64,000 nucleotides of DNA from Seonamhaeicola sp. ML3 (lineage in GTDB: Bacteria; Bacteroidota; Bacteroidia; Flavobacteriales; Flavobacteriaceae), in contig NZ_CP096884.1 in the NCBI RefSeq assembly GCF_023273855.1, positions 2,294,001 through 2,358,000 of the forward strand. Reading direction: 5' to 3'. Made by a program: the position numbers and the translations under genes. Numbering within the stretch: the first letter of the stretch is position 1; every line of letters begins with the position of its first letter. The notes under the pieces are model-generated. The model made no database searches, was not told where the DNA came from, and saw only the letters and a list, made by a program, of their open reading frames with translations. Shown here piece by piece: positions 15,786-43,918 of this stretch.

Positions 15786-15831
15786 TCAAATTATAGTTAA
15801 AGAATGGTAACACTATCCTGTACAATTCTGT
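15786..15831 (-). promoter_or_regulatory. PUL promoter element, minus-strand copy toward the sigma/FecR/SusC/SusD operon
   Basis: On the minus strand ACAG (plus 15831-15828) and ACAGGATA (from 15821) lie 10 nt apart. GGATA starts at 15818, exactly 25 nt before a -7-like TAATTTGA at 15793-15786. The start codon of the sigma factor is 157 nt further on, so this would have a long leader. Activator identity unknown. Confidence 0.6.
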
Positions 15832-15922
15832 TTGCTAAATACAATATACTGTTTTTTTACTTCTAACTAATAGGTAAACTAAGTAATAGTCTTTATTGTA
15901 ATATTTAAGATATTTTATTGAA

Positions 15923-15968
15923 TCATAATTGTTCAGGATAATTTTGTAATAGTTTATATATAAATTGT
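15923..15968 (+). promoter_or_regulatory. PUL promoter element upstream of the DUF1080 lipoprotein
   Basis: A degenerate first box (TCAT) at 15923 is followed 10 nt later by TCAGGATA at 15933. GGATA starts at 15936 and a -7-like TAAATTGT starts at 15961, exactly 25 nt later. The ATG is at 15994, leaving a short leader. Confidence 0.65.
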
Positions 15969-15993
15969 ACTAAAAATTTAATTAAAGTAGATT

Positions 15994-16764
15994 ATGTTGA
16001 GATTAAAGAGTTTCTCTGCTTTTTTATTGGTTCTGTTTTGTTGTTTTTTTACATGTAAAAATCAAGAATATCAAAGCAATTATAAAAATGGGTATAGGTC
16101 TATATTTAACGGAAAAAACTTAGATGGTTGGGAAGGCGATGCTACCTATTGGCGTGTGGAAAATGGTATTTTGGTTGGTGAAGTTACACCAGAGACACTT
16201 TTAAAACGGAATTCATTTATTATTTACAAAAACGCACAACCCGAAAACTTTGAATTAAAGTTAAAATATCGTGTTAGCGAATTGGGAAATAGCGGTATTA
16301 ACTACAGGAGTGAAATTATTGATGGAGTACCTTTCGCTCTTAGGGGATATCAATGTGATATTGATGGAAGAAATAGATTTACAGGTCAGAATTACGAAGA
16401 AAAAAAGCGCACTACATTAGCTTACATGGGTGAAAAAGTAAGTATACCTGAAATGCCAGATAGTATTCCAACAAGTAATATTCGAAAGAATGTTAAAAAA
16501 AATTGTTGGCAGACCAGATTGGTTATAGATACCCTGGGAACTAAACCAGAATTAAAATCTCATATTAAATCTAATGATTGGAATGAAGTTTATTTGAAAG
16601 TAAATGGAAACTTACTACAGCATTACGTCAACGGTGTTCTGATGAGTGAAGTGACCGATTTAGATACTAAAAACAAATCTCTTAAGGGCTATATAGGAGT
16701 TCAGGTTCATGTTGGTCCTCCTATGAAAATAGAATATAAAGATATAATGCTGAGGTACCTTTAA
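15994..16764 (+). CDS. Single-domain DUF1080 (3-keto-glycoside hydrolase/lyase-like) lipoprotein
   Basis: The signal ends in a lipobox-like CCFFTC. One DUF1080 jelly roll covers the rest: FNGKNLDGWEGDATYWRVENGILVGE at ~38-65, then FELKLKYRVSELGNSGINYRSE (about 90-110) and GYIGVQVHVGPPMKIEYKDI near the C-terminus. This is the standard size for the family (256 aa), unlike the double-domain protein at 1068. It is monocistronic, with its own copy of the CAGGATA promoter, and faces a ThuA-like gene tail to tail. ThuA and DUF1080 proteins often co-occur around 3-keto-sugar metabolism, which supports a role in non-hydrolytic glycoside cleavage; the substrate is unknown. Confidence 0.85.
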   Translation: MLRLKSFSAFLLVLFCCFFTCKNQEYQSNYKNGYRSIFNGKNLDGWEGDATYWRVENGILVGEVTPETLLKRNSFIIYKNAQPENFELKLKYRVSELGNSGINYRSEIIDGVPFALRGYQCDIDGRNRFTGQNYEEKKRTTLAYMGEKVSIPEMPDSIPTSNIRKNVKKNCWQTRLVIDTLGTKPELKSHIKSNDWNEVYLKVNGNLLQHYVNGVLMSEVTDLDTKNKSLKGYIGVQVHVGPPMKIEYKDIMLRYL

Positions 16765-16822
16765 TTAAGTGCAGCTATAACATCAAGGTTGAGAGATATA
16801 AGTTGATTTACTAGGACTTTAA

Positions 16823-17554
16823 CTACTCTTTTTTACTAACCCAATGTATGGCTCCAATGATATGTTTTCTGAATATAATATCATCATAAATCTCAGGCCT
16901 ATGTCCTAGTTGCGTTTGAAAAACACGACTACCTTCAAATATGTGGTACCACGCTATCGGATGGTCTCCCATGGTCATATCTTTACCGTGAAAATTCTTC
17001 ATTTCTATGGAGTCTTCGTTTAGAGAAATAAGTACATTTACATCTCCCCTGGGTGTCTTGTTCAAAGAATACCATTCGTCCTCCCAAACCATACTTCCTT
17101 TTTTTAAGTGTTTTGTAGCTGGGTGTGTGTTATCTTCAATAGTTATTTTTCCTTTTTGAACACCAGAATGACCAATAAACCTAGCACCTATTAAATTACC
17201 AAACCAAGGCCAATTTAATTCAGTAACGGTTGCAGAATGGATTCCTATAAATCCCTTACCAGATTTAATATAATTTCTAAAGGCTTCCTTTTGGTTGTTA
17301 TCCAAAATATCTTTATTGGTAAGGAGAAAAACGACAACGTCAAATTTATTTAAAATGTCTGTTGTAAAAAAAGAAGCGTTTTCAGTAAAAGTACATTTCC
17401 ATCCGTTTTCTTCACCCATCTCAACAAAACTTTTTATGGCATTAGGTAAACAGGCATGACGGTAATGCCCTGTTTTAGTGAATACCAATACGTTTTGACT
17501 AGTAGCAGAAAAGTAAAGGCTAAAAATAGCTAAGGTTAGTATTAGTGTTCTCAT
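16823..17554 (-). CDS. ThuA-like domain protein, exported
   Basis: A Sec signal peptide (MRTLILTLAIFSLYFSATSQ) precedes a ThuA-like flavodoxin/glutamine-amidotransferase fold: VLVFTKTGHYRHAC, FDVVVFLLTN, GKGFIGIHSA, WFGNLIGARFIGHSG, then HPIAWYHIFEGSRVFQTQLGH. The length (243 aa) fits a lone ThuA domain. The family was first tied to trehalose and 3-keto-sugar utilisation and is common beside DUF1080 and Gfo/Idh/MocA genes, as here. The actual reaction is not established. It has its own promoter-like element just upstream (17575-17610), though that copy is less perfect. Confidence 0.85.
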   Translation of the reverse strand: MRTLILTLAIFSLYFSATSQNVLVFTKTGHYRHACLPNAIKSFVEMGEENGWKCTFTENASFFTTDILNKFDVVVFLLTNKDILDNNQKEAFRNYIKSGKGFIGIHSATVTELNWPWFGNLIGARFIGHSGVQKGKITIEDNTHPATKHLKKGSMVWEDEWYSLNKTPRGDVNVLISLNEDSIEMKNFHGKDMTMGDHPIAWYHIFEGSRVFQTQLGHRPEIYDDIIFRKHIIGAIHWVSKKE

Positions 17555-17574
17555 ATCAAAAGTTTAATAAACTA

Positions 17575-17610
17575 TGAATTTATATTGAAGTTTTTAAAAT
17601 ACTGTCCTGT
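17575..17610 (-). promoter_or_regulatory. Probable PUL promoter element upstream of the ThuA-like gene
   Basis: On the minus strand ACAGGACA begins at plus 17610. GGA starts at 17607 and a TAAATTCA box starts 25 nt later at 17582. The first CAG box is missing and the core reads GGACA rather than GGATA, so this is a weaker member of the set. The start codon is 28 nt beyond the box. Confidence 0.45.
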
Positions 17611-17631
17611 TGTGGTGGATGTTATGTTAGA

Positions 17632-17667
17632 AAAAAAACGAGGACATCGGCGTCCTCGTTTTTTTTA
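17632..17667 (-). terminator. Intrinsic terminator of the jelly-roll lipoprotein gene
   Basis: A strong hairpin pairs ACGAGGAC (ending 17645) with GTCCTCGT (from 17652), with a 6-nt loop, flanked by an A-run on the left and a T-run on the right. It can act in both directions. It follows the minus-strand gene at 17685-18650 and lies upstream of the ThuA-like gene. Confidence 0.88.
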
Positions 17668-17684
17668 TATATTTATAATATTAT

Positions 17685-18650: not shown

Positions 18651-18671
18651 AGCAATAACAGTTTTTTTGTG

Positions 18672-18717
18672 TAAATCTACTTTAATAGGTCGGTTTACCC
18701 GTCCTGTCCTTTCCTGA
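18672..18717 (-). promoter_or_regulatory. PUL promoter element upstream of the jelly-roll lipoprotein
   Basis: On the minus strand TCAG (plus 18717-18714) and ACAGGACG (from 18707) lie 10 nt apart. GGA starts at 18704, exactly 25 nt before TAGATTTA at 18679-18672, a good -7 match. The start codon follows 22 nt after the box. Confidence 0.65.
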
Positions 18718-18769
18718 TAAAGAGGATTTGTGAATTCTTTAATGTAAATTTAAAGATGTATTGTTATGA

Positions 18770-19639
18770 TTAGTTTTTCTTAACGTAATCCTCTAGTATA
18801 CTTTTTACAACTTCCATGTTTCCGGCTTGTAAACCATCATTTACATTCGCGCCAGTAATCCAGTAAAGTACCATACCGGCATCAGAGCAATCCCATTTAC
18901 CTTTCTGAAACTTAACAACGTTATCTATTTCTGCTATATTGCCTATGGTCCAGATTAATCGTATTCTTGGGTCATCATGGTCTTTTGCCCAGTCCCACTT
19001 ATAATGGTCTAATTTTAAATTGATGTTTTGGTCTGGTATACGTACTTCTTCCACTCCGAAATCAAGTATCTCTTGCCAAGTGTAGAAATCACCAGCATTA
19101 TCGTTAGCAGGATGATGTGTTACTACTTTTACAAATTTGTGTTTTTCTTTAGGCGTCTTTTTTAGGGCCATACCAATAATGTCTGGTTCTCCTGCCTCGA
19201 TAATCCATAGTGGGTCATCTTCAGTAGAAGCGTTTATAGCCCAGCATAAATCGTTAATGGTTTCCTCTTTTTGCCAAATGGCATCGAAAAAAGTTAGCTG
19301 TTCAAATCCACCCCAACGTCGTGCTGTCATGTCACAGGCAACTTGCATGAGGTGATGACGCTCTTTTTCTGCTTTCTCAGATATTCTGTCATCTCTAACT
19401 AAGTCGCAACTATGGGAATAGTGAACCAATCGGTCTTCTAGTCCGCTAGCTCTAAGTAGGGCAATGGTAACAGCGGTGCCGCCCAAATCGTCTGGGTCTG
19501 GAGAATTCCCGTCAGCTACAACAGCAATTCGACCTTTAGGAGGAGCGATATCTTGTGCAGTAGAGGCACAACTAAAAAGTATAAGGGCTGTAAAAATGAA
19601 ATATATCCTTTTAGATAAGAAGTGTTTTAAATGATTCAT
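18770..19639 (-). CDS. Nucleoside-hydrolase-fold lipoprotein
   Basis: A lipobox (LFSC, Cys24) is followed by an Asp-rich motif at ~39-54 (A-V-V-A-D-G-N-S-P-D-P-D-D-L) that matches the calcium-binding DxDxxxDD signature of nucleoside hydrolase-like folds. DPLWIIEAGEPDIIGMAL and FVKVVTHH also fit that fold. At 289 aa it lacks the extra Ig-like domain of the Sde0182-type proteins at 46123 and 49790. Nucleoside hydrolases are usually cytosolic; an exported lipid-anchored version in a PUL suggests action on a glycoside. The substrate is unknown. It is transcribed divergently from the second susC gene. Confidence 0.6.
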   Translation of the reverse strand: MNHLKHFLSKRIYFIFTALILFSCASTAQDIAPPKGRIAVVADGNSPDPDDLGGTAVTIALLRASGLEDRLVHYSHSCDLVRDDRISEKAEKERHHLMQVACDMTARRWGGFEQLTFFDAIWQKEETINDLCWAINASTEDDPLWIIEAGEPDIIGMALKKTPKEKHKFVKVVTHHPANDNAGDFYTWQEILDFGVEEVRIPDQNINLKLDHYKWDWAKDHDDPRIRLIWTIGNIAEIDNVVKFQKGKWDCSDAGMVLYWITGANVNDGLQAGNMEVVKSILEDYVKKN

Positions 19640-19709
19640 TTGAGTAATATTATATTAAACTATATATAAGCAAATGCTAAAGGTATAGAAGTAGGGTTTA
19701 CTGTTTAAC

Positions 19710-19735
19710 CTGTTGTATCCTGTTAATACAGAATA
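19710..19735 (-). promoter_or_regulatory. Probable PUL element upstream of the nucleoside-hydrolase-fold gene
   Basis: On the minus strand ACAGGATAC is perfect (GGATA from plus 19720), 81 nt before the start codon. The first CAG box is absent and no TAnnTT box lies at exactly 25 nt; TACTTC is 27 nt away. The core is strong but the promoter architecture is less certain. Confidence 0.45.
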
Positions 19736-19865
19736 ATGAAGTTTCTTATAAGTTTATCAAGATATAAGAATTTGTTTTCGTTAAATTAAAGTGTTGATAA
19801 TTAGGTTTATAGTTTTTTAAAAGACTCTTTTTAAGATCTAAATGTCTTAAACAGCACAGAGCATA

Positions 19866-19910
19866 ACAGGAAGTACAGGATACACGTTAAGATTTTATAA
19901 AATATTTTGC
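19866..19910 (+). promoter_or_regulatory. PUL promoter element upstream of the second susC
   Basis: ACAGG at 19866 and ACAGGATAC at 19875 form a direct repeat with a 9-nt step. GGATA starts at 19878 and TATTTTGC at 19903, a 25-nt offset. The susC ATG is at 19940. Together with the minus-strand element at 19710-19735 it fills this 300-nt divergent intergenic region, in which I see nothing else. Confidence 0.75.
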
Positions 19911-19939
19911 CGTTCTATTAACAAATTAACTAAATATTT

Positions 19940-22900
19940 ATGAATTTAAAAACTACAGTAAACAGAGCCGCTGGAATTAGGCAGGCTCTTGTGGGTGCAT
20001 TTATGATTTTGTTCTGTGTGGCAATGTCTAGCGCTCAATCAGTAAAGGGTACCGTTACCGCCGACGGTCAACCACTTCCGGGAGCTACAGTAGTAGTGAA
20101 AGGAACAACAACTGGAACAAGTACGGATTTTGATGGTAATTATACCATTAATGCCGATGCTAACAGTACACTTGTTTTTTCCTATGTAGGTTATGCTTCT
20201 AAAGAGGTAGTGGTAGGAAGCCAAACAGAAATTAATGTGGAACTAGAAGCAGATAACGCACTTGATGAAGTTGTTGTTATTGGTTATGGTACACAAAGAA
20301 AATCTGACTTAACAGGTTCTGTGTCTTCAGTAAGCGCAGAAGATCTTACAGTCGTTCCTGTTGCTAGGGTAGACCAAGCCTTACAAGGTAGAGCAACTGG
20401 GGTTCAGGTTACTCAAGTAAGTGGTGCGCCAGGAGCAGGTACTGTAATTCGTGTTCGTGGTGGTAATTCTATTACCGGTAGTAATGAGCCACTTTGGGTA
20501 ATTGATGGTATTGTTGTAGGTACCAACTTTAACCTGAATAATATTAACAGTAACGATATTCAGTCTATCGAAATCCTAAAAGATGCATCTTCCATTGCCA
20601 TTTATGGTTCGAGAGGAGCAAACGGTGTTGTGTTGGTAACTACAAAAAGTGGTAGAGGTGCTGGTACTGGAAAACCTCAAGTAAGTGTTAATGTATACAC
20701 CAGTTCTCAGATGGTGCCAGAATTGCCACATATGTTAACACAGGAAGAGCAAATCGAATATACAAACGAAGATGCTACATTTAGAAATACTGCAATTCCA
20801 TTTCCAAATGATCCTTCTACCTATCCTGATAATGATTGGTTTGATTTGATTATGGGTACTTCACCTATTTATAGTGCAGATGTGTCGATTTCTGGATCTA
20901 CTGATAACTTAAACTACTATAATTCTATTAGTTATTTTAATCAAGATGGTATCGTTAAGAGTTCTGGTCTTGAAAGGTTTATTTTCAGATCCAATTTAGA
21001 TTACACGCTTAGTGATAAATTAAAGGCTGGATTTAGAGTAAATTACTCTAGAATTAATCAAGATAACGGTGTTGTTGGTTTTGGTAATGCTTTTGGAACA
21101 CTTAGAACACAACCAATATTTAATGATGATGGTACTTACAATGGATTCAACGATGTAATTGGTGCGCCATTTAACAACCCGTTAGCTGCTATTGAATTAA
21201 ATACTAATGAGACATTTACAAATAATTTATTAGCAACAGCTTACTTAGAGTACAGCCCTGTAAAGAACTTGGTTATCCGTTCTACATTCAGTCCTGAATT
21301 TAATAATATTAAGCAAAACAGATTTAATTCCAGTCAGTTACCAGGTCTTTTAGCAACAGATGTGCCAGACGGAGGAGAAGCTAGTGTAAGATCAGTTGCC
21401 AGCACGGGTTGGAATAACGAAAATACTATTCAGTATACTACAGATTTTAATGAAGATCATAGTTTAGTTGCCTTGGCTGGAGCCTCTTTCCAAAAAGTGT
21501 CAGTTGAAACGGCCATTGCTAGAGCCTTTGGTATTACGAGTGATGCTACAGGATTTAATAATCTAGGTTTTTCAGACCCTGCAAGGGCGAATATTGAAAG
21601 TGATTATGATGGATTTCAGATAGCATCTTTCTTCGGAAGAATCAACTATACCTTTAAAGATAAGTACCTATTAACATTGGTTGGAAGAACCGATGGTAGT
21701 TCGCGTTTTGCGCCAGGTAATAAATATGAGTTCTATCCGTCTATAGCAGGAGCTTGGAAAGTTTCTGAAGAACCATTTATGCAAAATCAAAATGTATTCC
21801 AAGATTTAAAGTTAAGAGCGAGTTGGGGTAAATCCGGTAATCAAGCTATTGAAGCCTACAGAACTTTAGGGCTTTTAACTGAAGCTAATACTACATTGGG
21901 AGGTACTGAACTACCTGGTCTAACTATTGGTAGACCAGCAAACCCTAACTTACAATGGGAAACAACAAGTTCTTACGATATTGCTTTAGAAGCCTCATTG
22001 TTTGGTGGTAAGATTTTTACAGAGTTTAACTATTACTACAAAAAGACGAATGATTTATTATTAGACGTAACCATTCCTAGACAGACTGGGTTTACTAGCC
22101 AGTTACAAAATGTTGGTTCTTTAGAAAATAAAGGATGGGAGTTAATGGTTAACTCAACAAATATTAACAAAGGAGACTTTACTTGGGGGTCTACAGTGAC
22201 TTTATCGTCTAATGAGAATAAAATATTAGACCTTGGCGGTGCAGAATTCATTGATGTAACTGTAGATGAAATTTTAGGTTCAGACAATACACGTTTAATA
22301 GTAGGTGAATCTGTACCAACATTTACTGGTGCTAGATATTTAGGTACTTGGAAAAGTCAAGCAGAGATTGATGCATCCGGGTTCACAGGTCCTGCTACCG
22401 TTGGTGGAGCTAGATTTGAAGATATAAATGGAGATGGTATCATCTCAACTGAAGATTATGTAGTAGCTGGTGACCCTACTCCAGATTTAATATTTGGTGT
22501 TGAAAATAATTTCTCTTACAAAAATTGGGATTTGTCATTTTATTTCCAAGGAACAGTAGGTAACGAAGTATTTAACTTGCTAATGCGTAATAACTACTTC
22601 GCTAGAGGAGAAGCTACAAAATTTGGGGATATAGCAGATCGTTGGATACAAGGTGTAAATGAAACCTCAGATATTCCAAGAGCAGGTACTGATACAGTAG
22701 GAGGTATACCGCCAAACACTGAGTATATAGAGGATGGTTCCCACTTACGTTTAAGATCAGTAAGGTTAGCTTATAATGTACCAGTTGATAGCTGGGGATT
22801 AAATGGTGTTAAAAATGCTACAATTTATTTTTCAGGAAGTAATTTGTTACTTTTATCTAGTACACGTTTAATTGATCCAGAAGCTAGTAGGTTTGGAAGA

Positions 22901-22990
22901 ACTGGTTTAGGTAATATTGCACAGGGTTACTTAAGTGGTCAGTACCCTAATCCACGTATTCTAACTTTAGGCCTTAACGTAACATTTTAA
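19940..22990 (+). CDS. SusC/RagA TonB-dependent transporter (no STN domain)
   Basis: The signal peptide ends near residue 33 (AMSSAQ). The carboxypeptidase-regulatory-like domain follows directly (VKGTVTADGQPLPGATVVVKGT), then the SusC signature DEVVVIGYG at ~110, the plug (IRVRGGNSITGSNEPLWVIDG) and the barrel, ending LGLNVTF. There is no STN domain, so unlike the transporter at 10198 it should not signal through an anti-sigma factor. It has a good CAGGATA promoter instead. The susD partner starts 13 nt downstream. Two different transporters in one PUL suggest uptake of two oligosaccharide classes. Confidence 0.95.
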   Translation: MNLKTTVNRAAGIRQALVGAFMILFCVAMSSAQSVKGTVTADGQPLPGATVVVKGTTTGTSTDFDGNYTINADANSTLVFSYVGYASKEVVVGSQTEINVELEADNALDEVVVIGYGTQRKSDLTGSVSSVSAEDLTVVPVARVDQALQGRATGVQVTQVSGAPGAGTVIRVRGGNSITGSNEPLWVIDGIVVGTNFNLNNINSNDIQSIEILKDASSIAIYGSRGANGVVLVTTKSGRGAGTGKPQVSVNVYTSSQMVPELPHMLTQEEQIEYTNEDATFRNTAIPFPNDPSTYPDNDWFDLIMGTSPIYSADVSISGSTDNLNYYNSISYFNQDGIVKSSGLERFIFRSNLDYTLSDKLKAGFRVNYSRINQDNGVVGFGNAFGTLRTQPIFNDDGTYNGFNDVIGAPFNNPLAAIELNTNETFTNNLLATAYLEYSPVKNLVIRSTFSPEFNNIKQNRFNSSQLPGLLATDVPDGGEASVRSVASTGWNNENTIQYTTDFNEDHSLVALAGASFQKVSVETAIARAFGITSDATGFNNLGFSDPARANIESDYDGFQIASFFGRINYTFKDKYLLTLVGRTDGSSRFAPGNKYEFYPSIAGAWKVSEEPFMQNQNVFQDLKLRASWGKSGNQAIEAYRTLGLLTEANTTLGGTELPGLTIGRPANPNLQWETTSSYDIALEASLFGGKIFTEFNYYYKKTNDLLLDVTIPRQTGFTSQLQNVGSLENKGWELMVNSTNINKGDFTWGSTVTLSSNENKILDLGGAEFIDVTVDEILGSDNTRLIVGESVPTFTGARYLGTWKSQAEIDASGFTGPATVGGARFEDINGDGIISTEDYVVAGDPTPDLIFGVENNFSYKNWDLSFYFQGTVGNEVFNLLMRNNYFARGEATKFGDIADRWIQGVNETSDIPRAGTDTVGGIPPNTEYIEDGSHLRLRSVRLAYNVPVDSWGLNGVKNATIYFSGSNLLLLSSTRLIDPEASRFGRTGLGNIAQGYLSGQYPNPRILTLGLNVTF

Positions 22991-23003
22991 AAAAAAATAG
23001 ATT

Positions 23004-24590
23004 ATGAAAACAAAACAGATATTTTTATACGTCTTCATGATTTTCTCATGTTTTGCATGTGAGGAGTTTTTAGAAGAAGAGCCGAGAGCATTAATCTCTC
23101 CAGAAACGTTCTTAGCATCGGCAAGTGATGCGAAGACATTTATAAATGGTTATTATGCCATCTTAAAAAATAACTCCATTTATGGTCAGATTGGATTAGA
23201 TCATTTTTACGATAACGGGTGTGATATTATTGAACCAAATCGTATAGCAAATTTTGTAGCTGGTATTTCTAACTATGAAATGAATGAAGCTATTGCAGAT
23301 AGGTCTGTTCAAAAGATGAGTGTATCTGATACTTGGAAAGATTTTTATAGAATCATATTGAATACCAATACATTGATTTCTAGGATTGCAGATAATGAAA
23401 ATATATCTCAAGCAGAACGTACAGATTTTGTTGCTGATGCAAGGTTTGTAAGAGCATTATGCTATTGGCATATTACAAACCTTTGGGGTGATGCACCTTT
23501 CTACACAGAAGTACTTACACTTGAGGAAATAGGAGCTTTAGGAAGAACAGATGAGGATATTATTTTAGATGCCGTGTTAGATGATTTAGAATTTGCTCAG
23601 GCAAATTTGAAGAATGAATATACAGGAGAAGAAGCCGGGCGAGCTTCAAGGTGGGCAGCTGCTTTAATAGAAGCTAAAATCCATATGCAGAGGAGAAACT
23701 GGCAAGCAGGATTAGATAAATGTTTAGAAATTATCAATCAATCGCCTCATCAGTTATTACCAACATATGCAGAAGTTTTTGATCCTAATAATGAATATAA
23801 TGCCGAGATCATCTGGTCTTTAGACTTTGCAAAAGATATCAGAGGACAGTTTGAAGAAGGTGTGCTTAGAGCAGATGGGACTTTGCCTGGATTTGCAGGT
23901 AATGGTAACTGGAGAGCAAGTATGTTTAATCCTCGTTTAAGGGATGAGCCTAGAAACAATGACGATAGAGATGCTTTAATTGCAGCTTTAGCGGCAAATG
24001 GTGAGGCAATGAATGGTACAGGATTGCAAGTAGCATCAAAGGATTTTGCTGAAAAATTCCCATTGAATGATTTAAGAAGGCCACTAAATGTGAACGATCA
24101 ATATGAAGGAATACAATTAAATTTTCCTTACATGCCTAAATTCATGAATTTAAATTTGGCTACGTCACCTCGTTTTAACCACTCAGATAACAGAATGGTA
24201 TTCCGTCTTGCTGATATTTATTTAATGGCAGCTGAATGTGAAAATGAATTGAATGGCCCAACAAATGCTTATCAATATATTCATGCTGTTAGAGAGCGAG
24301 CTTATGCTACTCAGGCTGAGTGGGAATTAGTAGGACTTTCTCAGCAACAGTTTAGAGAAGCTATTTACGATGAGCGTAAATGGGAGTTAGCAGGTGAAGC
24401 TTGGAGAAGATATGATTTAATTAGATGGGGTATTTTATTGGATGTGGTTCAAAACTTAGAATATCGTTTTTGGGATCCAGCATCTAATATAAAGCCTTGG
24501 CACGTAAAACTGCCTATTCCTTTACAGGAAATAATTAACAACCCAGCATTGTTAGAGTCAGATCCAACAAACAACGGGTATAGACAATAG
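23004..24590 (+). CDS. SusD/RagB family outer-membrane glycan-binding lipoprotein
   Basis: The signal MKTKQIFLYVFMIFSCFAC is followed by EEFLEEEPRALISPETFL, typical of mature SusD N-termini. The TPR-like core (FVRALCYWHITNLWGDAPFYTEVL) and C-terminal motif (YDERKWELAGEAWRRYDLIRWG) are clear. It pairs with the susC 13 nt upstream. It is not closely similar to the SusD at 8667, which supports distinct ligands for the two systems. An excellent terminator follows. Confidence 0.94.
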   Translation: MKTKQIFLYVFMIFSCFACEEFLEEEPRALISPETFLASASDAKTFINGYYAILKNNSIYGQIGLDHFYDNGCDIIEPNRIANFVAGISNYEMNEAIADRSVQKMSVSDTWKDFYRIILNTNTLISRIADNENISQAERTDFVADARFVRALCYWHITNLWGDAPFYTEVLTLEEIGALGRTDEDIILDAVLDDLEFAQANLKNEYTGEEAGRASRWAAALIEAKIHMQRRNWQAGLDKCLEIINQSPHQLLPTYAEVFDPNNEYNAEIIWSLDFAKDIRGQFEEGVLRADGTLPGFAGNGNWRASMFNPRLRDEPRNNDDRDALIAALAANGEAMNGTGLQVASKDFAEKFPLNDLRRPLNVNDQYEGIQLNFPYMPKFMNLNLATSPRFNHSDNRMVFRLADIYLMAAECENELNGPTNAYQYIHAVRERAYATQAEWELVGLSQQQFREAIYDERKWELAGEAWRRYDLIRWGILLDVVQNLEYRFWDPASNIKPWHVKLPIPLQEIINNPALLESDPTNNGYRQ

Positions 24591-24613
24591 TGAGTTTTTG
24601 AATTGTTTAGTTT

Positions 24614-24650: not shown

Positions 24651-24711
24651 ATGCATAAATCTATTTTAGTAATAAGTTTAAGTAGCTTGTTAAATGAATT
24701 TAGATATTTAT

Positions 24712-24757
24712 ACAGTATGGTGCAGGATACGTTAAAAGTTAAATCGCAATATTTTTA
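24712..24757 (+). promoter_or_regulatory. PUL promoter element upstream of the GH5 gene
   Basis: ACAG at 24712 and GCAGGATAC at 24722 are 10 nt apart. GGATA starts at 24725 and TATTTTTA at 24750, a 25-nt offset. The ATG at 24819 follows a ~60-nt leader. It probably drives GH5, GH3 and the alpha/alpha-toroid gene. Confidence 0.75.
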
Positions 24758-24818
24758 CTTAGCTGTGTAAATGAATAATAGATCTCATTTTGTTCTATAA
24801 CAGAAACTAGTGTAAAAT

Positions 24819-31103: not shown

Positions 31104-31148
31104 CCAGACAGTACAGGATACTATGTTCTTCTTTGTGTGGTAAATTTC
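31104..31148 (+). promoter_or_regulatory. PUL promoter element upstream of the small T9SS protein
   Basis: CCAG at 31104 and ACAGGATAC at 31113 are 9 nt apart. GGATA starts at 31116 and TAAATTTC at 31141, exactly 25 nt. The ATG is at 31185. Confidence 0.75.
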
Positions 31149-32022: not shown

Positions 32023-32167
32023 GACCAATATTTTTTAAAGAAACGTCCCATTAATTACATAGTGTATCCTTAGGTCATACAGTATACTAATTATAACAAG
32101 GTGATGGTTGGCTTGAGTGTTTTTGTTGATATAGTGTTCATAAAATCAGTGTGTTGGGTTGTTTCTT

Positions 32168-32203
32168 ACAGGATGATACATGATAGATAATTTGGTATAT
32201 TTG
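32168..32203 (+). promoter_or_regulatory. PUL promoter element upstream of the first BNR-4/lectin protein
   Basis: TTACAGGATGA has a slightly changed core (GGATG from 32171). A perfect -7 box TATATTTG starts at 32196, exactly 25 nt later. The first CAG box is not evident. The ATG is at 32268. The rest of the 31962-32267 gap holds only the preceding terminator. Confidence 0.65.
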
Positions 32204-32267
32204 TTTAAAATTACAAACTATTTTCGCTCGCTAAAGTGGAAATAAGCTATGTGAAAAGAAAAAGTTT

Positions 32268-34838: not shown

Positions 34839-34884
34839 ACAGAACGGTACAGGATACTTTTTTTAAGTAAAAGTCGTAACTTAG
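34839..34884 (+). promoter_or_regulatory. PUL promoter element upstream of the second BNR-4 protein
   Basis: ACAG at 34839 and ACAGGATAC at 34849 are 10 nt apart, a near-ideal copy. GGATA starts at 34852 and TAACTTAG at 34877, exactly 25 nt. The ATG is at 34927. Confidence 0.78.
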
Positions 34885-34926: not shown

Positions 34927-37113
34927 ATGAAAAAAAATTTTACTCTTCCCATAGAGAGGTGTTTATGTACCCTATTGTTCTTAGCACTTTTCTCGTCAGT
35001 CCCGTCTCAAGCTCAAGTTGTTCTAGAGAACGAGATTAAGATTACCGATTTCGGTTTACATTTTGATGGTTCTAAGGTTACTGGTGGAGCTGCAAACTCT
35101 GGTGATAATGCACCTTACGATTATTTCTTTGGTAGAAATATTTCTGCCCATGGAGATGCTATTAAAACCTATGGTATTTATGTTTTTATGACTTGGTACA
35201 GAGGTGGCAAAAATGACCGACATGTCATGTTAACCAGATACAATACAATTACAGGTACAATGGCCACAATTGAGTTTCCTCATAGACATACGGGGTATCA
35301 AAATCGATACTGGATTGGTGAGTCTCACAACACCATCGCAGTGGGCATCAGTCCTTTAGACGGCACAATTCATTTGTTGTACGATATGCATGCTTACAGT
35401 CCTACAAAACCATCCGATGGTAGTTTGGCTAATGATTATTTTAGATATTCATATTCTGTCAAAGATGCTGCTTCGTTGCCTGATGCCGATTTTACCTTAG
35501 ATAAATTTGTTACAAATGGTACAGGAGGATATAAGCATTTGAGAATGCCAGGGATTGCCCCACAATCTGAATTTCGTGCATTAACATACCCAAGATTCTT
35601 CCAAAATGATGGTGGTGAGACTTTTATGCTCATGCGTGAAGGTGGAAATAACAATGGGATGTTTAAGTTTATAAAATATGATGCCAATACTGGAGAGTGG
35701 GGTAACTTCATAGATTTTAATAGATTAAATGCAAGAAGTCAACCAGGGATTGAATTTAATTGGGGACTTTACGGTGATATGAAATATGTAAACGGAAAGT
35801 TTCGCCTTGGTTTTCAACGTAGGTCTTCAAACAATAATGATAAATATCTATACCAAAACGGGGTGTATTATGCCTATTCAGATGATCAAACGGCTGCTAC
35901 AGGTTGGAAAAATCATAAAGGTGAATCTTTTAGTCTGCCATTATGGGATGCCGATTTTATTAAAGTTATGGAACCAGGAGATTACGTAGAGACAACAAAC
36001 CCAAATAGAGTGCGCATTGTAGGAGGTTTTGATTGGACAGTTACTGCAAATGGTGATGTACATATTAAGAGTCAGGTACGAGATTTGGATAATAACGTTA
36101 CTAAAAACTTACATACCTATAAACCAGCTGGTGCTTCAGAGTTTATAACTACAGAACAATCGATAGCTGGATCTTTTTACACATCAGGGGCTAATGTTTA
36201 TACAGTAGGTTTAAATAACGGTAGGGTTGTTGTATATAAAGCAGAAGGCGGAACTGATAATTTTGAGAAGGTTTATGAGGCTACTACAGGAAGACGTTTC
36301 GATCATGGTGTTGTTCACATAGAAAATGGTAAGGCATACTACTACTTAATGGAAGACAAATCGGGAAGTGCACAACCATTGTATTTACAAATCATAGATT
36401 TAGGCATCGTCGAGAGGGACCCCACGGCGTCCAACAATTTCACTATACAGTCCGTTGGGGAGAGCTGTGCGGGGATGAACAACGGTAAGTTGGTCATCAA
36501 CGGACTGGCATCTCACGATTTTACTACGAGAATAAACAACCAAGACTACAGATTCAATAAGGGTACGACCATAGATGGCCTTGCCCCAGGTATTTACGAT
36601 TTCTGTATCGATGTTGTGGGCGAGGATTACAGCCATTGCTATCAGGTAGAGATTGCCGGAGGCGTAAGCCTAACGGGAAAGCTGGCCTTGGAGAAACAAT
36701 CACTGGCAGTATCGGTAGATACTGGAGCGCCACCGTATACGGTCTACAAGAACGGCGTAGAGGTCCTGGAGACCTACCAGTCGAACTTTGACCTTAGCGT
36801 AGCGCACGGTGACAATGTTGAGGTAAAGGCCAAGGATGCCTGCCAGGGCGTAATGAGCAAGACCATCAACCTTTTGGAGGATCTAAGGGCGTACCCGAAC
36901 CCATCTGACGGTTCGTTCGAGGTCTATATGCCCAGCAGTCTGGAATCGGTTAGTTTGGAGGTGTATAACATCCACTCCCAACTTATCGACGTAAAGACGG
37001 TGCAAACAAATTCGGGAAGGGTACGTTTCGACATCACCGATAAGCCCAATGGTATTTATTTTGTGAAGGTGAACTTGGATAAGCCAGTATTTATTAAATT
37101 AATAAAAAAGTAA
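34927..37113 (+). CDS. T9SS-secreted BNR-4 (PL24/PL25 ulvan-lyase-like) enzyme with shared C-terminal module
   Basis: The signal ends near residue 30 (PSQAQ). The propeller (~31-490) keeps the motif pair His134 (ESHNTI) and His155 (YDMHAY). From about residue 494 a module shared with the proteins at 38067 and 40834 follows (NNFTIQSVGESCAGMNNGKL, GIYDFCIDVVGEDYSHCYQ, KDACQGVMSKTI), with four conserved Cys. The T9SS domain is at ~654-728 (YPNPSDGSFEV, KPNGIYFVKVN). The DNA from about 36405 is far richer in G+C than the first part of the same gene, a switch exactly at the domain boundary. The stop codon is 1 nt before the start of the Fn3 lipoprotein gene, so the two are translationally coupled. 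Confidence 0.82.
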   Translation: MKKNFTLPIERCLCTLLFLALFSSVPSQAQVVLENEIKITDFGLHFDGSKVTGGAANSGDNAPYDYFFGRNISAHGDAIKTYGIYVFMTWYRGGKNDRHVMLTRYNTITGTMATIEFPHRHTGYQNRYWIGESHNTIAVGISPLDGTIHLLYDMHAYSPTKPSDGSLANDYFRYSYSVKDAASLPDADFTLDKFVTNGTGGYKHLRMPGIAPQSEFRALTYPRFFQNDGGETFMLMREGGNNNGMFKFIKYDANTGEWGNFIDFNRLNARSQPGIEFNWGLYGDMKYVNGKFRLGFQRRSSNNNDKYLYQNGVYYAYSDDQTAATGWKNHKGESFSLPLWDADFIKVMEPGDYVETTNPNRVRIVGGFDWTVTANGDVHIKSQVRDLDNNVTKNLHTYKPAGASEFITTEQSIAGSFYTSGANVYTVGLNNGRVVVYKAEGGTDNFEKVYEATTGRRFDHGVVHIENGKAYYYLMEDKSGSAQPLYLQIIDLGIVERDPTASNNFTIQSVGESCAGMNNGKLVINGLASHDFTTRINNQDYRFNKGTTIDGLAPGIYDFCIDVVGEDYSHCYQVEIAGGVSLTGKLALEKQSLAVSVDTGAPPYTVYKNGVEVLETYQSNFDLSVAHGDNVEVKAKDACQGVMSKTINLLEDLRAYPNPSDGSFEVYMPSSLESVSLEVYNIHSQLIDVKTVQTNSGRVRFDITDKPNGIYFVKVNLDKPVFIKLIKK

Positions 37114-37828
37114 GATGAAAAAGGTATATTTATATTTAGCGGTAATGGTAAGTGTTTTAATGTCTTGCAGCAGTGGCGGTGACGGCGATGGAGGCGGACC
37201 TGACCCAGGCCCCGACCCTGTGAACACGGCGCCTACGGTACCCAGTCAGGTGTACCCATTGAGCAATACGTTGTGTATCAACAATAGCGTTGTGTTCGAG
37301 TGGATGGCCTCGACCGATAAGGAGGGCAACCCTATAAGCTATAGGATACAGGTATCCGAGCAGAGCGATTTCTCTACCATGGCACACGATGTAACGAGTT
37401 CGTCGACCTCAAGGGTGATAACCCTTGAAAAGGGGAAGGCGTATTACTGGCGTGTAAGGTCTCGAGACAGCAAGGGTGAGGAGAGTGCGTTTTCCGGAGT
37501 GAGCAATTTCCTGACCGAGGGAGACGGGGTATCGAACCATCTACCGTTTGCACCGAGCTTGGTAGGTCCTGAGCTTAACTCTGAGGTCGATGGTACGAGT
37601 ACGACATTGAGCTGGACGGCGAGCGATGTGGACAATGATGACCTGACCTTCGATGTGTACCTGGACACGAACAGCGACCCGGTAACTAAGGTATCAGAGA
37701 ACCAGGCGGAGACAACTTACAGTGCTACGGGGTTGACGGCATCTATGACGTACTACTTCAAGGTGGTTGTCAAGGATGGCAACGGTGGCGTTACCATCGG
37801 ACAGGTTTGGAGTTTTTCTACTAAATAA
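36405..37828 (+). other. G+C-rich mosaic segment: C-terminal module plus Fn3 lipoprotein
   Basis: Direct counts: 34 of 60 bases are G or C in 36421-36480 and 38 of 60 in 37201-37260, against 21 of 60 in 36301-36360 just upstream and 23 of 60 in the homologous module of the paralog (42361-42420). Codons shift to GTA, AAC, GAC, AAG and GAG. The boundary falls between the propeller and the C-terminal module. This suggests recent recombination with a donor of higher G+C. Confidence 0.7.
37115..37828 (+). CDS. Lipoprotein with two fibronectin-III-like domains (copy 1)
   Basis: The lipobox is LMSC (Cys18), followed by a Ser/Gly/Asp spacer (SSGGDGDGGGPDPGPDPV) and two Fn3-like domains (~40-135 and ~140-237). 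Each ends in a strand typical of the fold (KAYYWRVRSRDSKGEESAFS; MTYYFKVVVKDGNGG). No catalytic residues are recognisable. It starts 1 nt after a T9SS-secreted lyase-like protein, and a near-identical copy follows another such protein at 43053. A constant partnership is likely, for example an anchor or docking partner on the outer membrane, but this is inference. It is almost wholly G+C-rich, unlike most of the window. Confidence 0.8.
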   Translation: MKKVYLYLAVMVSVLMSCSSGGDGDGGGPDPGPDPVNTAPTVPSQVYPLSNTLCINNSVVFEWMASTDKEGNPISYRIQVSEQSDFSTMAHDVTSSSTSRVITLEKGKAYYWRVRSRDSKGEESAFSGVSNFLTEGDGVSNHLPFAPSLVGPELNSEVDGTSTTLSWTASDVDNDDLTFDVYLDTNSDPVTKVSENQAETTYSATGLTASMTYYFKVVVKDGNGGVTIGQVWSFSTK

Positions 37829-38066
37829 TAGTATATTCTCAATAAATAAAGTAAGACTAAAGATCAGTAGTTTGTTCTGTTATAAGATTCGGTTACGTTT
37901 TTACTGCTAATAGGTGTAAAATGTATTTTTGTCTACTTTTTTGGGAACTTTGTTTATGCTGCAAGTGTTAATTTTGTTAGTTAAATAAGTTTTTGAAAAT
38001 AGTCCAAATGCTTCTTTTGGTCTTTTTTAAAAACAAAATGTAAGAACTAAAAAAGATATTATAGCT

Positions 38067-40712: not shown

Positions 40713-40747
40713 TTTTAGGTTTTTTTGTAGTTGTTGGCAAATTTACT

Positions 40748-40793
40748 TCAGAACAGTGCAGGATACTTTGGTTTGATTTTAATGCTAATTTTA
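40748..40793 (+). promoter_or_regulatory. PUL promoter element upstream of the third BNR-4 protein
   Basis: TCAG at 40748 and GCAGGATAC at 40758 are 10 nt apart. GGATA starts at 40761 and TAATTTTA at 40786, exactly 25 nt. The ATG is at 40834. Confidence 0.77.
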
Positions 40794-40833
40794 GGGCATC
40801 TATTTTTTATCAGAAATAAAAAACTAGAAGACT

Positions 40834-43038
40834 ATGAAAAAGAAAAACTTTAAAAAAAATATAATTATCAGAAATTTTCTTCTGGTAGTTTTATTGTCTT
40901 ACATTGGTTCAGGTGTTGTAAATGCCCAAGTTACCTTAGAAACCGAAGTTAAGATTACAGATTTGGGTTTACATTTTAATGGAGCCCGTAAATATGATGA
41001 ACGAAGTACAAACATACCAGATAACGGAAATCCAGATTCTTATGATTATATCTTTGGACGTAATATATCAGCACATGGAGATGCAGTAAAGGCCTATGGA
41101 AAATATGTGTTTATGACTTGGTATAGAGGAGGTAAATTAGACAGACATATGATGTTATCTCGTTACAACACTGAAACAGGAACTATCGCAACCATAGAGT
41201 TTCCTCACAGACATACTGGTTATCTAAATCAATGGTGGTTAGGAGAATCTCACAATACGATTGCAGTTGGTATTAGTCCTTTAGATGGTACAATACATAT
41301 GTTGTTTGATATGCATGCCTACAGACCTACAACTGCAGGTGGTAGTTTATCAGACGATTATTTTAGATACGCGTATTCAGTAAAGAATGCAGCCACCTTA
41401 CCAGATGCAGAATTTACTTTAGATAAGTTTGTACAAGATGCTAATGGGCGTTATAAACATTTAAGGCTAACAGGTAACATTAATCAAACTGAATTTCACG
41501 GATTAACATATCCCTCTTTTTTCTTAAACGACCAAGGAGATTTATTAATGAAAATGAGGGAAGGAGGACATACAAATGGAATGTACAAGTTTACAAAGTA
41601 TGACGCCAGTTCAGGTCATTGGACAGACTTCACTGATTTTAATAGATTAAACGCAAAGAATCAACCTGGGATTACCTACAATTGGGGTTTGTATGGAGAT
41701 ATTAAATATGCAAATGGAAAAATAAGAGTTGGCTATCAGCGTAGATCAGCAAATACTAATGATAAATTTAGCCATCAAAATGGTATTTATTATGCATATT
41801 CAGATAATCAGGATGGATCTGATGGCTGGAAGAACCACAAAGGAGAACCGATTTCTGTTCCCCTTTATGATTCTGATTTAATAAAAATAGCAGAACCTGG
41901 AGATTTTGTTCAAACCACTCAAAAAGATCAGGCTCGCATCACAGGCGGACTTCATTTTACTGTTACTGATAATGGTGATGAACATTTTATTAGTAGTATA
42001 AGAGATGCTGAATTTAACGTTACTAAAAGACTACATACCTATAGACCAGCAGGTGAAATAGAGTTTACAACAACAGACGATTTTGCTGGTGGGTCAACAA
42101 TCTATACCTCTGGTAACAATATTTATATAATAGGCTTGGAAAACGATCGTGTTTATGTGGAAAAAGCAGCAGGAGGAACTAATGATTTTGAAAGGGTTTA
42201 TCAGGCAACCAGTGGACTTATATTTGATCATGGTGTGGTACATGTTTATAATGGTAAGGCCTATTATTATTTAATGGAAAAAAAGTCAGGTAATGCAATG
42301 CCATTATACTTACAAATTATCGATTTAGATATTGATCCAGTAGACCCTACCTTATCAAATAATTTTACCATTCAAACTATTAGTGAAACCTGTGCAGGGA
42401 AGGCCAATGGAAGACTTTCTATAAACGCTGCTGCTGCTTTCAATTATACAACTACCATAAATGGTGTGAATTATGATTTTACAAAAAATTTAGAGGTTAA
42501 CGACTTATCTCCTGGTACATATGATTTTTGTATAGACTTAGACGGTATGGATGAACGTTACTGTTACCAAGTGGAAATAGAAGGTGGTACTAGTTTATCT
42601 GGTAAAATGGAGATTGTTAAGCAGGCCGTTGAAGTTTCAGTTACTTCTGGAGAATCCCCTTATAGTATCTTTAAGAACGGGGTCAAGATAATGGAGACAA
42701 ACCAAACAACATTCTTTATTAATGCCAATCATGGTGATAATATTGTTGTAAAAAGCAAGGACGCTTGCCAAGGTGAAATGGGAACGACCGTAAATTTCTT
42801 TGAGGATATAAAAGCATATCCAAATCCATCAAGTGGAGTATTTGAAATTTTTATGCCAAATGTTTCCAAAGAAGTTAATGTTGAGATTTATAATATTCAC
42901 TCGCAGTTGGTAGCAACAAATACTCTGGCTCCAAATACGAATAGAATGACTTTAGATATAGAAAATAAACCAAATGGTATTTACTTTGCCAAGGTTGGCT
43001 TTGAAAACCCAGTATTTATTAAATTAATAAAAAAGTAA
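40834..43038 (+). CDS. T9SS-secreted BNR-4 (PL24/PL25 ulvan-lyase-like) enzyme with shared C-terminal module
   Basis: The signal ends near residue 31 (GVVNAQ). The propeller has His140 (ESHNTI) and His161 (FDMHAY), the same spacing as the other two paralogs. A unique insertion (KYDERSTNIPDNGNPDS, ~53-69) replaces the GSKVTSGAS region of its relatives. The Cys module starts near residue 502 (NNFTIQTISETCAGKANGRL) and the T9SS domain near 659. Unlike the 34927 gene, the module here has the AT-rich base composition of the host. A second Fn3 lipoprotein gene follows after 14 nt. Three related enzymes suggest division of labour over differently substituted parts of the polymer. Confidence 0.82.
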   Translation: MKKKNFKKNIIIRNFLLVVLLSYIGSGVVNAQVTLETEVKITDLGLHFNGARKYDERSTNIPDNGNPDSYDYIFGRNISAHGDAVKAYGKYVFMTWYRGGKLDRHMMLSRYNTETGTIATIEFPHRHTGYLNQWWLGESHNTIAVGISPLDGTIHMLFDMHAYRPTTAGGSLSDDYFRYAYSVKNAATLPDAEFTLDKFVQDANGRYKHLRLTGNINQTEFHGLTYPSFFLNDQGDLLMKMREGGHTNGMYKFTKYDASSGHWTDFTDFNRLNAKNQPGITYNWGLYGDIKYANGKIRVGYQRRSANTNDKFSHQNGIYYAYSDNQDGSDGWKNHKGEPISVPLYDSDLIKIAEPGDFVQTTQKDQARITGGLHFTVTDNGDEHFISSIRDAEFNVTKRLHTYRPAGEIEFTTTDDFAGGSTIYTSGNNIYIIGLENDRVYVEKAAGGTNDFERVYQATSGLIFDHGVVHVYNGKAYYYLMEKKSGNAMPLYLQIIDLDIDPVDPTLSNNFTIQTISETCAGKANGRLSINAAAAFNYTTTINGVNYDFTKNLEVNDLSPGTYDFCIDLDGMDERYCYQVEIEGGTSLSGKMEIVKQAVEVSVTSGESPYSIFKNGVKIMETNQTTFFINANHGDNIVVKSKDACQGEMGTTVNFFEDIKAYPNPSSGVFEIFMPNVSKEVNVEIYNIHSQLVATNTLAPNTNRMTLDIENKPNGIYFAKVGFENPVFIKLIKK

Positions 43039-43053
43039 GATAAAAAAGTAAAA
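43028..43053 (+). repeat. 13-nt tandem duplication between stop codon and lipoprotein start
   Basis: TAAAAAAGTAAGA (43028-43040) is followed directly by TAAAAAAGTAAAA. The homologous junction at 37113 has one copy only. The extra unit widens the stop-to-start gap from 1 to 14 nt. Confidence 0.75.
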
Positions 43054-43766
43054 TGAAAAAGGTATATACATATTTAGCGGTAATGATAAGTTTATTGATG
43101 TCGTGCAGCAGTGGCGGCGACGGTGATGGCGGTGGTCCAGACCCGGGCCCCGACCCAGTCAACACGGCACCTACGGTACCGAGCCAGGTGTACCCATTGA
43201 GCAACACGCTGTGTATCAACAATAGCGTTGTGTTCGAGTGGATGGCCTCGACCGATAAGGAGGGCAATCCCATAAGCTACAGGGTACAGATATCCGAGCA
43301 GAGCGATTTCTCTACCATGGCGCACGATGTAACAAGTTCGTCGACCTCAAGGGTGATAACCCTTGAAAAGGGTAAGGCGTATTACTGGCGCGTAAGGTCC
43401 CGGGACAGCAAGGGCGAGGAGAGTGCGTTTTCCGGAGTGAGCAATTTTCTTACCGAGGGAGACGGGGTATCGAACCACCTACCGTTTGCACCGAGCTTGG
43501 TAGGTCCTGAGCAGGACTCCGAGGTCGATGGTACGAGTGCGACATTGAGCTGGACGGCGAGCGATGTGGACAATGACGACCTGACCTTCGATGTGTACCT
43601 GGACACGAACAGCGACCCGGTAACGAAGGTGTCGGAGAACCAGGCGGAGACAACGTACAGTGCCACGGGATTGACGGCATCTACGACGTACTACTTCAAG
43701 GTGGTTGTCAAGGATGGCAACGGTGGCGTTACCATCGGACAGGTTTGGAGTTTTGCTACTAAATAA
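43053..43766 (+). CDS. Lipoprotein with two fibronectin-III-like domains (copy 2)
   Basis: It differs from the copy at 37115 by only about ten residues out of 237 (for example T6 for L, I12 and L14 in the signal, EQD for ELN near residue 153, A for S near the end). The lipobox, Gly/Asp spacer and both Fn3 domains are unchanged. The DNA is also nearly identical and G+C-rich from about 43095. Such high identity within a locus of diverged paralogs points to recent duplication or gene conversion. It follows a T9SS-secreted BNR-4 protein, as copy 1 does. Confidence 0.82.
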   Translation: MKKVYTYLAVMISLLMSCSSGGDGDGGGPDPGPDPVNTAPTVPSQVYPLSNTLCINNSVVFEWMASTDKEGNPISYRVQISEQSDFSTMAHDVTSSSTSRVITLEKGKAYYWRVRSRDSKGEESAFSGVSNFLTEGDGVSNHLPFAPSLVGPEQDSEVDGTSATLSWTASDVDNDDLTFDVYLDTNSDPVTKVSENQAETTYSATGLTASTTYYFKVVVKDGNGGVTIGQVWSFATK

Positions 43767-43810
43767 CTGGAATAACAATACCAAAGAATAAGAATCTTAG
43801 GATTTATATA

Positions 43811-43861
43811 AATAACAAAGAAGGCAAAAAGTTCACAAAACTTTTTGCCTTCTTTGTTATT
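43811..43861 (+). terminator. Long hairpin after the third BNR-4/Fn3 pair
   Basis: Perfect 23-bp inverted repeat with arms at 43811-43833 and 43839-43861 and a 5-nt loop (CACAA). Its length is unusual, and the T-run is short. It lies about 45 nt after the lipoprotein stop and just before the next promoter element. Confidence 0.75.
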
Positions 43862-43872
43862 TGAATATCTAA

Positions 43873-43918
43873 ACAGTAAAGAGCAGGATATATAACCTAC
43901 TTTTATTTTATAGCTTTA
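43873..43918 (+). promoter_or_regulatory. PUL promoter element upstream of the GH20b-like/Sde0182-like cluster
   Basis: ACAG at 43873 and GCAGGATA at 43883 are 10 nt apart. GGATA starts at 43886 and TAGCTTTA at 43911, exactly 25 nt. The ATG is at 43944. It probably drives the five genes up to 52191. Confidence 0.75.

Follow-up and report, generated by a model that had tools for sequence, protein, structure and literature searches.

What switches on the genes for ulvan breakdown in Seonamhaeicola sp. ML3, and which protein reads the signal? To our knowledge, the switch-on of large polysaccharide loci in marine and soil Bacteroidota is little known outside Bacteroides. The stretch considered here, called the window, comprises 64,000 nucleotides (positions 2294001-2358000 of a genome formed by a single contig of 3,467,789 bases) and belongs to an ulvan super-locus that spans 274 kb of the chromosome. 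A first-pass annotation of this DNA had described a repeated promoter element with CAG boxes and had ascribed it to an AraC-type reader such as a hybrid two-component system (HTCS) protein. The repeated motif is confirmed as real and the earlier observation holds; a different reader is proposed. As judged from sequence comparison, the element is probably the operator of a GntR-family one-component sugar sensor, which, together with its sugar, would activate promoters locked to the -7 box.

A head-to-tail promoter element in register with the -7 box

In full, the element reads CAGGAYAG-N2-CAGGAYRG: boxes repeated head to tail every 10 bp, in two and sometimes three copies. Searched over the whole genome, the pattern CAGGAYR-N20-TANNTT gave 33 matches (26 forward, 7 reverse) against 2 for the reversed pattern, and N18 spacing gave 12 against 6. 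The interval 2139-2413 kb holds 26 of the 33, 11 of them inside the window. The spacing histogram for the 404 kb around the window counted 27 cases at N20 and 12 at N30, against a mean of 1.8 and a maximum of 5 at the other 36 spacings, the N30 satellite being the upstream box seen one turn further away. Almost all N20 sites of these 404 kb (26 of 27) are intergenic and point to a gene that begins 17-273 nt further on; the remaining one, at 2504870, is coding and probably a chance match.

A position weight matrix (PWM) was trained on 25 N20 sites, and 15 bits was taken as the line for matches. Its columns reproduce the two boxes at the 10-bp period and the -7 box, with no further strong column. 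At 15 bits or more it found 31 matches in the 404 kb, all 31 intergenic and 12 of them in the window, and none in 280 kb of background stretches elsewhere in the genome. In leave-one-out scoring 21 of the 25 training sites reached at least 22.7 bits, the other four scoring 3.7, 13.8, 13.8 and 16.5. Seven plain matches lie outside the super-locus: six in other loci (L035-L040), none of which reaches 14 bits, and the coding match at 2504870. One shared promoter architecture and a locus-wide regulon, as the first-pass annotation had held, are thus borne out, and in this genome the motif is not equally frequent before unrelated genes. The extent has to be widened, since the element-bearing regulon stretches over about 2138-2413 kb and the window contains 12 of the 31 matches.

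The geometry was examined further in 101 sites from other genomes, chosen solely on box 2 and the -7 box. An exact CAGGAY occurs exactly 10 bp upstream, as box 1 (CAGGAYAG), in 49 of the 101 and at 20 bp, as a third copy, in 4; none was found at any other distance within 7-25 bp, and no strongly conserved column appears further upstream of the boxes. When tandem pairs were collected without requiring a -7 box, TANNTT stood at N20 in 49 of 56. This fixed register, seen also in the 27 cases at N20 against a mean of 1.8, is as in a class II activator promoter and suggests polymerase contact rather than simple blocking. The -7 box itself follows TAnnTTTG, the Bacteroidota sigma-A consensus as given in a part of PMC9723704: in the same 101 sites, which were preselected for TAnnTT, T stands at +33 in 78, and +34 is G or A in 93. 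The direct-repeat symmetry, the sigma-A-type -7 box and the position of the element over the -33 region had all been recognized correctly in the earlier annotation. Rows of three head-to-tail boxes were seen at L007 (about 8030-8060), beside the third HTCS gene of the source genome, and at L159 (about 12470-12490), near a GntR gene of genome G099.

Distribution and target genes across Bacteroidota

The strict tandem module was counted in 397 genomes of the same family as the source, of which 64 carry it; the reversed control was found in none of the 397. A scan with one genome per species returned at least 120 stretches, and 80 of them were used. By record titles 72 of these 80 are from Bacteroidota, with 76 of their 80 sites intergenic, while the other eight stretches hold eight sites, seven of them coding. 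Annotation of 20 of 70 first genes (every third; the first twenty of twenty-four) gave two GH106 rhamnosidases, two GH28, one GH88, one oligogalacturonate lyase, one PL28, one GH43, one sulfatase with a rhamnosidase-type Ig domain, three proteins of the TonB-receptor type, one 3-keto-disaccharide hydrolase, one esterase-like protein and one fasciclin. The other five do not directly back a rhamnose theme (URO-D, an O-antigen ligase, a lectin-domain protein and two without a family). Kinase, isomerase and RhaEW-like proteins occur in module loci, as judged by eye from N-terminal likeness to the source rha operon, and in further loci sites precede SusC, xylB-xylA and uxu-type operons (gene names by eye). 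The module thus recurs across Bacteroidota, often ahead of rhamnosidase, pectin and ulvan genes.

The same theme is found at home. The ten first genes behind super-locus sites outside the window comprise two of GH78 type, one GH106, one GH2, one sulfatase, one RhaEW-like aldolase/dehydrogenase, one short-chain dehydrogenase, one with a sorting domain only and two without a family.

Co-occurrence with a GntR regulator

The source genome has at least three relatives of the proposed GntR reader. The closest copies are encoded at 2402923-2403969(-), divergent from rhaEW, and at 2360646-2361737(+); a more distant relative lies at 2138111-2139112(+), and a fourth, weaker match is also present. In all three source proteins tested, a GntR helix and a Peripla_BP_3 domain score above the Pfam cut-off. 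The GntR of the source rha operon is of the same type as that in the motif-rich cluster of G293 (77% identical), where, over 120 kb with 20 matches, it is the only regulator recognisable by N-terminus or search. The modelled fold matches the LacI-family sugar regulators RbsR (with ribose), TreR and LacI, which supports a small sugar as the predicted effector and leaves unspecified which one.

For the 397 genomes the GntR subfamily was delimited at a best E of 1e-110 or lower, in the gap between 384 and 325 bits, with 79 genomes above the cut. It is present in 61 of the 64 module genomes and in 18 of the 333 without the module (Fisher p 2e-51; both, GntR only, module only and neither: 61, 18, 3 and 315; odds ratio 356), a p-value that, like the one below, overstates independence because the genomes are related. 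Two of the three module genomes without the GntR hold next-closest homologues (325 bits), and the two genomes with 325-bit homologues have sites upstream of rhaEW at 18.7 and 26.7 bits. G331, which has a single module match, is the sole module genome lacking both GntR and rhaEW.

Rhamnose catabolism as such was tried as an explanation and rejected. The corresponding table for rhaEW is 63, 32, 1 and 301; within the 95 rhaEW genomes the GntR still separates the module carriers, 61 of 78 with it against 2 of 17 without (p 4e-7).

Covariation of the boxes with the neighbouring GntR

Upstream of rhaEW about 280-620 bases were read; G299 has no rhaEW, and the rhaEW genomes with low GntR scores, G236 and G326, were left out. 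Among the GntR genomes without an exact strict module, a site precedes rhaEW in all 17 read (of 18), at 19.8-32.4 bits, including G351, whose listed GntR is on a different contig from rhaEW. Module-positive genomes gave 8 of 8, at 24.3-32.9 bits. A site thus stands before the rhamnose catabolic genes in all 25 GntR genomes read and in the source genome (2404240). In eight rhaEW genomes without an adjacent GntR nothing exceeded 14.8 bits (G277, pointing away from rhaEW), and the rest stayed at or below 10.6.

Five genomes (G137, G335, G411, G385 and G250; loci L373-L377) have instead an adjacent sister GntR of 282-300 bits, and all five show changed boxes in the same register: box 2 reads CAGAACR in four and CATAACA in one, with scores of 14.8-24.1 bits. 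Helix 3 of the winged-helix domain is TVEK or TIEK in 13 of 13 proteins of the GGA type and TVVK, TVVR or TIVR in 5 of 5 of the variant type, and a wing SxPGKG occurs in variant-type proteins only, so that helix 3 and wing of the two sets do not overlap. A GGA-type site was seen beside 10 of the 13 GGA-type genes, of which all but that of G017 were checked for one.

These comparisons bear on the idea that the true reader is an undetected rhamnose regulator whose gene lies elsewhere and which simply co-occurs with GntR and rhaEW. In its favour, rhaEW alone predicts the motif well (63 of 64), most listed sites lie far from any GntR, and the regulators of these genomes are incompletely listed. 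Yet the motif is carried by just two of the 17 rhaEW genomes without GntR, and changes in the boxes go along with changes in the adjacent GntR and its helix 3; such a regulator is accordingly considered unlikely.

AraC-type and other candidate readers

The AraC/HTCS reading was initially favoured. The first-pass annotation had been right that no reader gene lies in the window, and the source genome has 11 AraC-domain matches, three of them in HTCS proteins (about 1360 aa) encoded within the super-locus. The three paralogues occur only there, at 2147-2151, 2187-2191 and 2362-2366 kb (L025, L027 and L007); a target motif of their own was not found. Their DNA-binding domains define a subfamily by a score gap (at least 188 against at most 133 bits) in 59 genomes. 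Around 12 subfamily HTCS genes of other genomes, 38 PWM matches of at least 15 bits fell in 480 kb, against one in 560 kb round 14 other HTCS genes, an association confounded by the glycan because these HTCS sit in ulvan-type loci; three of the 12 neighbourhoods have no site. In the 397 genomes the subfamily, taken at a threshold of 1e-42, is present in 28, of which 22 have the module (22, 6, 42 and 327; odds ratio 28.5).

It is nevertheless missing from 42 of the 64 motif genomes, and the module is found in 22 of 24 HTCS genomes with GntR against 0 of 4 without. Direct repeats of AraC/HTCS regulators lie about 21 bp apart on average, according to a section of PMC3878776, whereas exact CAGGAY partners were found at 10 and 20 bp only. 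The reading was dropped because sites are dense where no HTCS exists: at 15 bits or more, five module-rich genomes without the subfamily hold 21 matches in 120 kb (G099), 20 in 120 kb (G293), 9 in 60 kb (G156), 8 in 40 kb (G074) and 7 in 60 kb (G139). Searches of these stretches with tblastn (E 1e-6) found no HTCS, AraC or ECF (extracytoplasmic function) sigma homologue, and genome-wide AraC-domain lists place none within them, one AraC gene of G139 lying about 4.3 kb outside (C32:15483). An AraC-type HTCS as reader is therefore very improbable.

Other candidates were set aside as well. At E 1e-6 the five clusters contain no homologue of either of the two stand-alone AraC genes of the super-locus; the one at 2215623 has relatives at 72-77% in the ulvan clusters of G004, G005 and G008, and also in Polaribacter (L249). 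Of the 120 AraC matches in five genomes, the 30 with loci were compared with the source AraC genes; they include orthologues of two of these, and no link to the motif was seen. A Reg_prop protein at 2068 kb adjoins a different SusC-like locus, as seen by eye. Recognition by an ECF sigma factor was suggested by the sigma gene that lies in the window behind a site of its own; a search of the stretches read from the five motif-rich clusters at E 1e-6, though, found no homologue of that sigma factor, the -7 box is of sigma-A type (in the portion of PMC9723704 concerned), and tandem repeats suit a transcription factor, which leaves this the most improbable of the readers considered.

Proposed mechanism and its weighing

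The reader is envisaged as a protein with a GntR winged helix at its N-terminus and a sugar-binding domain like that of LacI and RbsR. Two winged helices would read the two head-to-tail CAGGAYRG boxes, which are offset by one helical turn. Should the -7 box lie, as in F. psychrophilum, at -12 to -5, the two boxes would extend over about -49 to -33; at such promoters the -33 region would be occupied by the operator. Once it has bound its sugar, for which L-rhamnose or one of its derivatives is the likeliest candidate, the GntR protein may then help sigma-A RNA polymerase to start at the TAnnTT -7 box, and the predicted regulon would unite import and the breakdown of ulvan with the catabolism of rhamnose and uronate.

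The same GntR might instead be a repressor that covers the -33 region until the sugar releases it, like known GntR/LacI-type sugar repressors. Most of its relatives by fold or domain are called repressors, operator and core promoter overlap, and the GntR gene and rhaEW are in most cases divergently oriented. Blocking, on the other hand, needs no exact register, yet 49 of the 56 pairs stand exactly 20 nt before TANNTT, and the variant boxes also keep this register. Repression is regarded as a possible but clearly less favoured mode of action.

Activation by a GntR sensor has to be weighed against several observations that do not fit it easily. GntR dimers usually bind inverted repeats, and a tandem operator is unusual; here the boxes are head to tail both in the GGAY version and in the clearer GAAC cases of G385 and G250. 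The AlphaFold2 model, built from six sequences, is of moderate quality (pLDDT 74.4, pTM 0.55). A -33 TTG is only weakly enriched in the other TANNTTTG sites of the source genome, and, as it is so faint there, the lack of a -33 box is a weak argument. A GntR gene is found within 20 kb of only 43 of the 150 listed sites; most of the sites would thus have to be controlled from further away. No site was found directly upstream of the GntR copies of G139 (L172) and G005 (L114) or of the source copy at 2360646, nor before rhaEW in G030, G066 and G275, whose sister GntR is not adjacent to it. The variant site of G335 (14.8 bits) is not separated by score from the best match without GntR, that of G277 (14.8 bits), and thus rests on likeness to its sister sites, while the residue covariation involves five variant-type proteins, is uncorrected for relatedness and could reflect ancestry. 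The per-genome scores covered 10 HTCS, 5 GntR and 2 rhaEW candidates, and members may be hidden. Finally, in G027 plain N20 matches outnumber reversed ones by 25 to 4 although the genome has neither the strict module nor a subfamily GntR, and G039 (25 against 7) and G052 (34 against 12), both outside the 397, behave similarly in plain against reversed matches; all three lack the HTCS subfamily.

Sites and neighbouring genes in the window

The scan of 30 window proteins for families identified an ulvan locus with a PL28 ulvan lyase, an ulvan-lyase beta-trefoil protein, other BNR_4 proteins, sulfatases, SusC/SusD pairs, GH78, GH43, GH3, GH5 and L-rhamnose mutarotase; scanning the window for Rfam families and tRNAs gave no match. 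Its sites are listed in Table 1. All 12 positions named in the first-pass annotation carry CAGGA(T/C)(A/G) on the strand given there, and at 11 of them TAnnTT begins 25 nt after GGA. The supposed exception at 19720(-), said to lack a -7 box at that distance, is box 1 of a pair whose box 2, CAGGTTA, lies at 19710(-), and the -7 box TACCTTTA is present at the normal distance (23.3 bits). At 32171 the motif is there, but its register has to be corrected, with 32171 as box 1 and CATGATA at 32181 as box 2 (19.2 against 11.6 bits). Boxes had been given as 9-10 nt apart; 10 bp is usual and 9 bp is the exception at 19878. The site at 17607, described as the weakest, is indeed weak, but those at 15936, 19878 and 32181 are alike (19.2-20.2 bits), and all exceed the background stretches.

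Table 1. Promoter elements in the window (window coordinates)
Element	Position	Strand	Genes ahead and score
Tandem-box promoter, GGA 15818	15786..15830	-	ECF sigma/FecR/SusCD genes 15653-8667; PWM 31.0 bits, N20 -7 box
Promoter element, GGA 15936, poor box 1	15924..15968	+	15994-16764 (3-keto-disaccharide hydrolase domain); PWM 20.2 bits
Promoter element, GGA 17607, poor box 1	17575..17619	-	ThuA-like 17554-16823; PWM 19.4 bits
Tandem-box promoter, GGA 18704	18672..18716	-	PL28 ulvan lyase 18650-17685; PWM 30.1 bits
Tandem-box promoter, box 1 19720, box 2 19710	19678..19722	-	19639-18770; PWM 23.3 bits
Promoter element, GGA 19878, boxes 9 bp apart	19866..19910	+	SusC/SusD 19940-24590; PWM 19.6 bits
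Tandem-box promoter, GGA 24725	24713..24757	+	GH5 and GH3 genes from 24819; PWM 31.5 bits
Tandem-box promoter, GGA 31116	31104..31148	+	31185-31961; PWM 32.0 bits
Promoter element, best register box 1 32171 and box 2 32181	32159..32213	+	ulvan-lyase-like 32268-34766; PWM 19.2 bits
Tandem-box promoter, GGA 34852	34840..34884	+	BNR_4 protein 34927-37113; PWM 30.3 bits
Tandem-box promoter, GGA 40761	40749..40793	+	BNR_4 protein 40834-43038; PWM 35.0 bits
Tandem-box promoter, GGA 43886	43874..43918	+	43944-46121; PWM 26.7 bits
Doubtful weak copy, GGA 52331	52319..52363	+	GH78 rhamnosidase 52399-55170; PWM 12.0 bits (below 15), GATATT in place of TAnnTT

Several neighbouring genes deserve mention. 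At 8667-15653 (-) an ECF sigma gene, a FecR-type anti-sigma gene and SusC/SusD stand in a row, with the element at 15818(-) preceding the sigma gene; the row is possibly a second regulatory layer under GntR. Two 237-aa genes (37115-37828 and 43053-43766), with weak SusE matches and a near-identical N-terminus, each follow a BNR_4 protein, and the pairs are probably a duplicated two-gene unit. The genes at 18770-19639, which is preceded by an element, and at 47609-49786 have no Pfam family match at E 0.001 and are candidates for new ulvan enzymes. A protein of the acetolactate-decarboxylase family with a lipoprotein-like start is encoded within the ulvan locus at 51370-52191.

Relation to known systems and significance

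The closest known type is AraR of B. subtilis, which binds palindromes as a repressor and shares with the present regulator the GntR winged helix and the Peripla_BP_3 sugar-binding domain. The operator proposed here differs: its boxes repeat head to tail every 10 bp at a fixed distance from the -7 box, and its set of targets extends over polysaccharide loci in many Bacteroidota. The winged helix matches PDB entry 4egy, 'Arabinose metabolism transcriptional repressor' (E 1.7e-7). Zobellia galactanivorans reportedly has a GntR repressor of alginate catabolism (NAR, 2020), a likewise marine polysaccharide GntR regulator, the likeness being one of title alone. The portions seen of other Zobellia papers (PMC5613140 and PMC5698469) and of PMC12125979 deal with other regulators.

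Among L-rhamnose regulators, RhaR and RhaS of AraC, DeoR and LacI types have been described in the main text of PMC3870299, where rhaEW and the rhamnose pathway are regulated too, and which makes no mention of GntR. The DeoR-type RhaR motifs given there are likewise direct repeats, of 10-11 bp. The Bacteroides RhaR differs in being of AraC type with a 21-bp periodicity (PMC3870299, same text) and in having a single target operon (as presented in PMC3878776). Bacteroides HTCS regulons, in the sections of PMC3878776 that treat them, are alike in placing direct repeats before operons of polysaccharide utilization loci and in uniting SusC/SusD and enzymes in one regulon, and differ in their repeat distance (21 against 10 bp here), reader gene and distribution. 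No earlier description of a GntR rhamnose-glycan regulon was found in the searches made of an open-access library.

Taken together, these comparisons may point to a previously unrecognised, Bacteroidota-wide rhamnose-glycan regulon, a proposal given even chances here, in which a GntR/LacI-like sensor would activate through head-to-tail boxes locked to the -7 box and one cytoplasmic monosaccharide signal would switch on ulvan, rhamnogalacturonan and rhamnose genes. The analysis provides a sequence code without a reversed-control match in 397 genomes, together with a named candidate regulator, and the sister operator makes its specificity testable at two protein positions. If the proposal is true, the locus would be controlled from inside the cell by the released monosaccharide, in parallel with the HTCS encoded there, which sense oligosaccharides; in many Bacteroidota the motif marks genes for the use of plant and seaweed polysaccharides rich in rhamnose.

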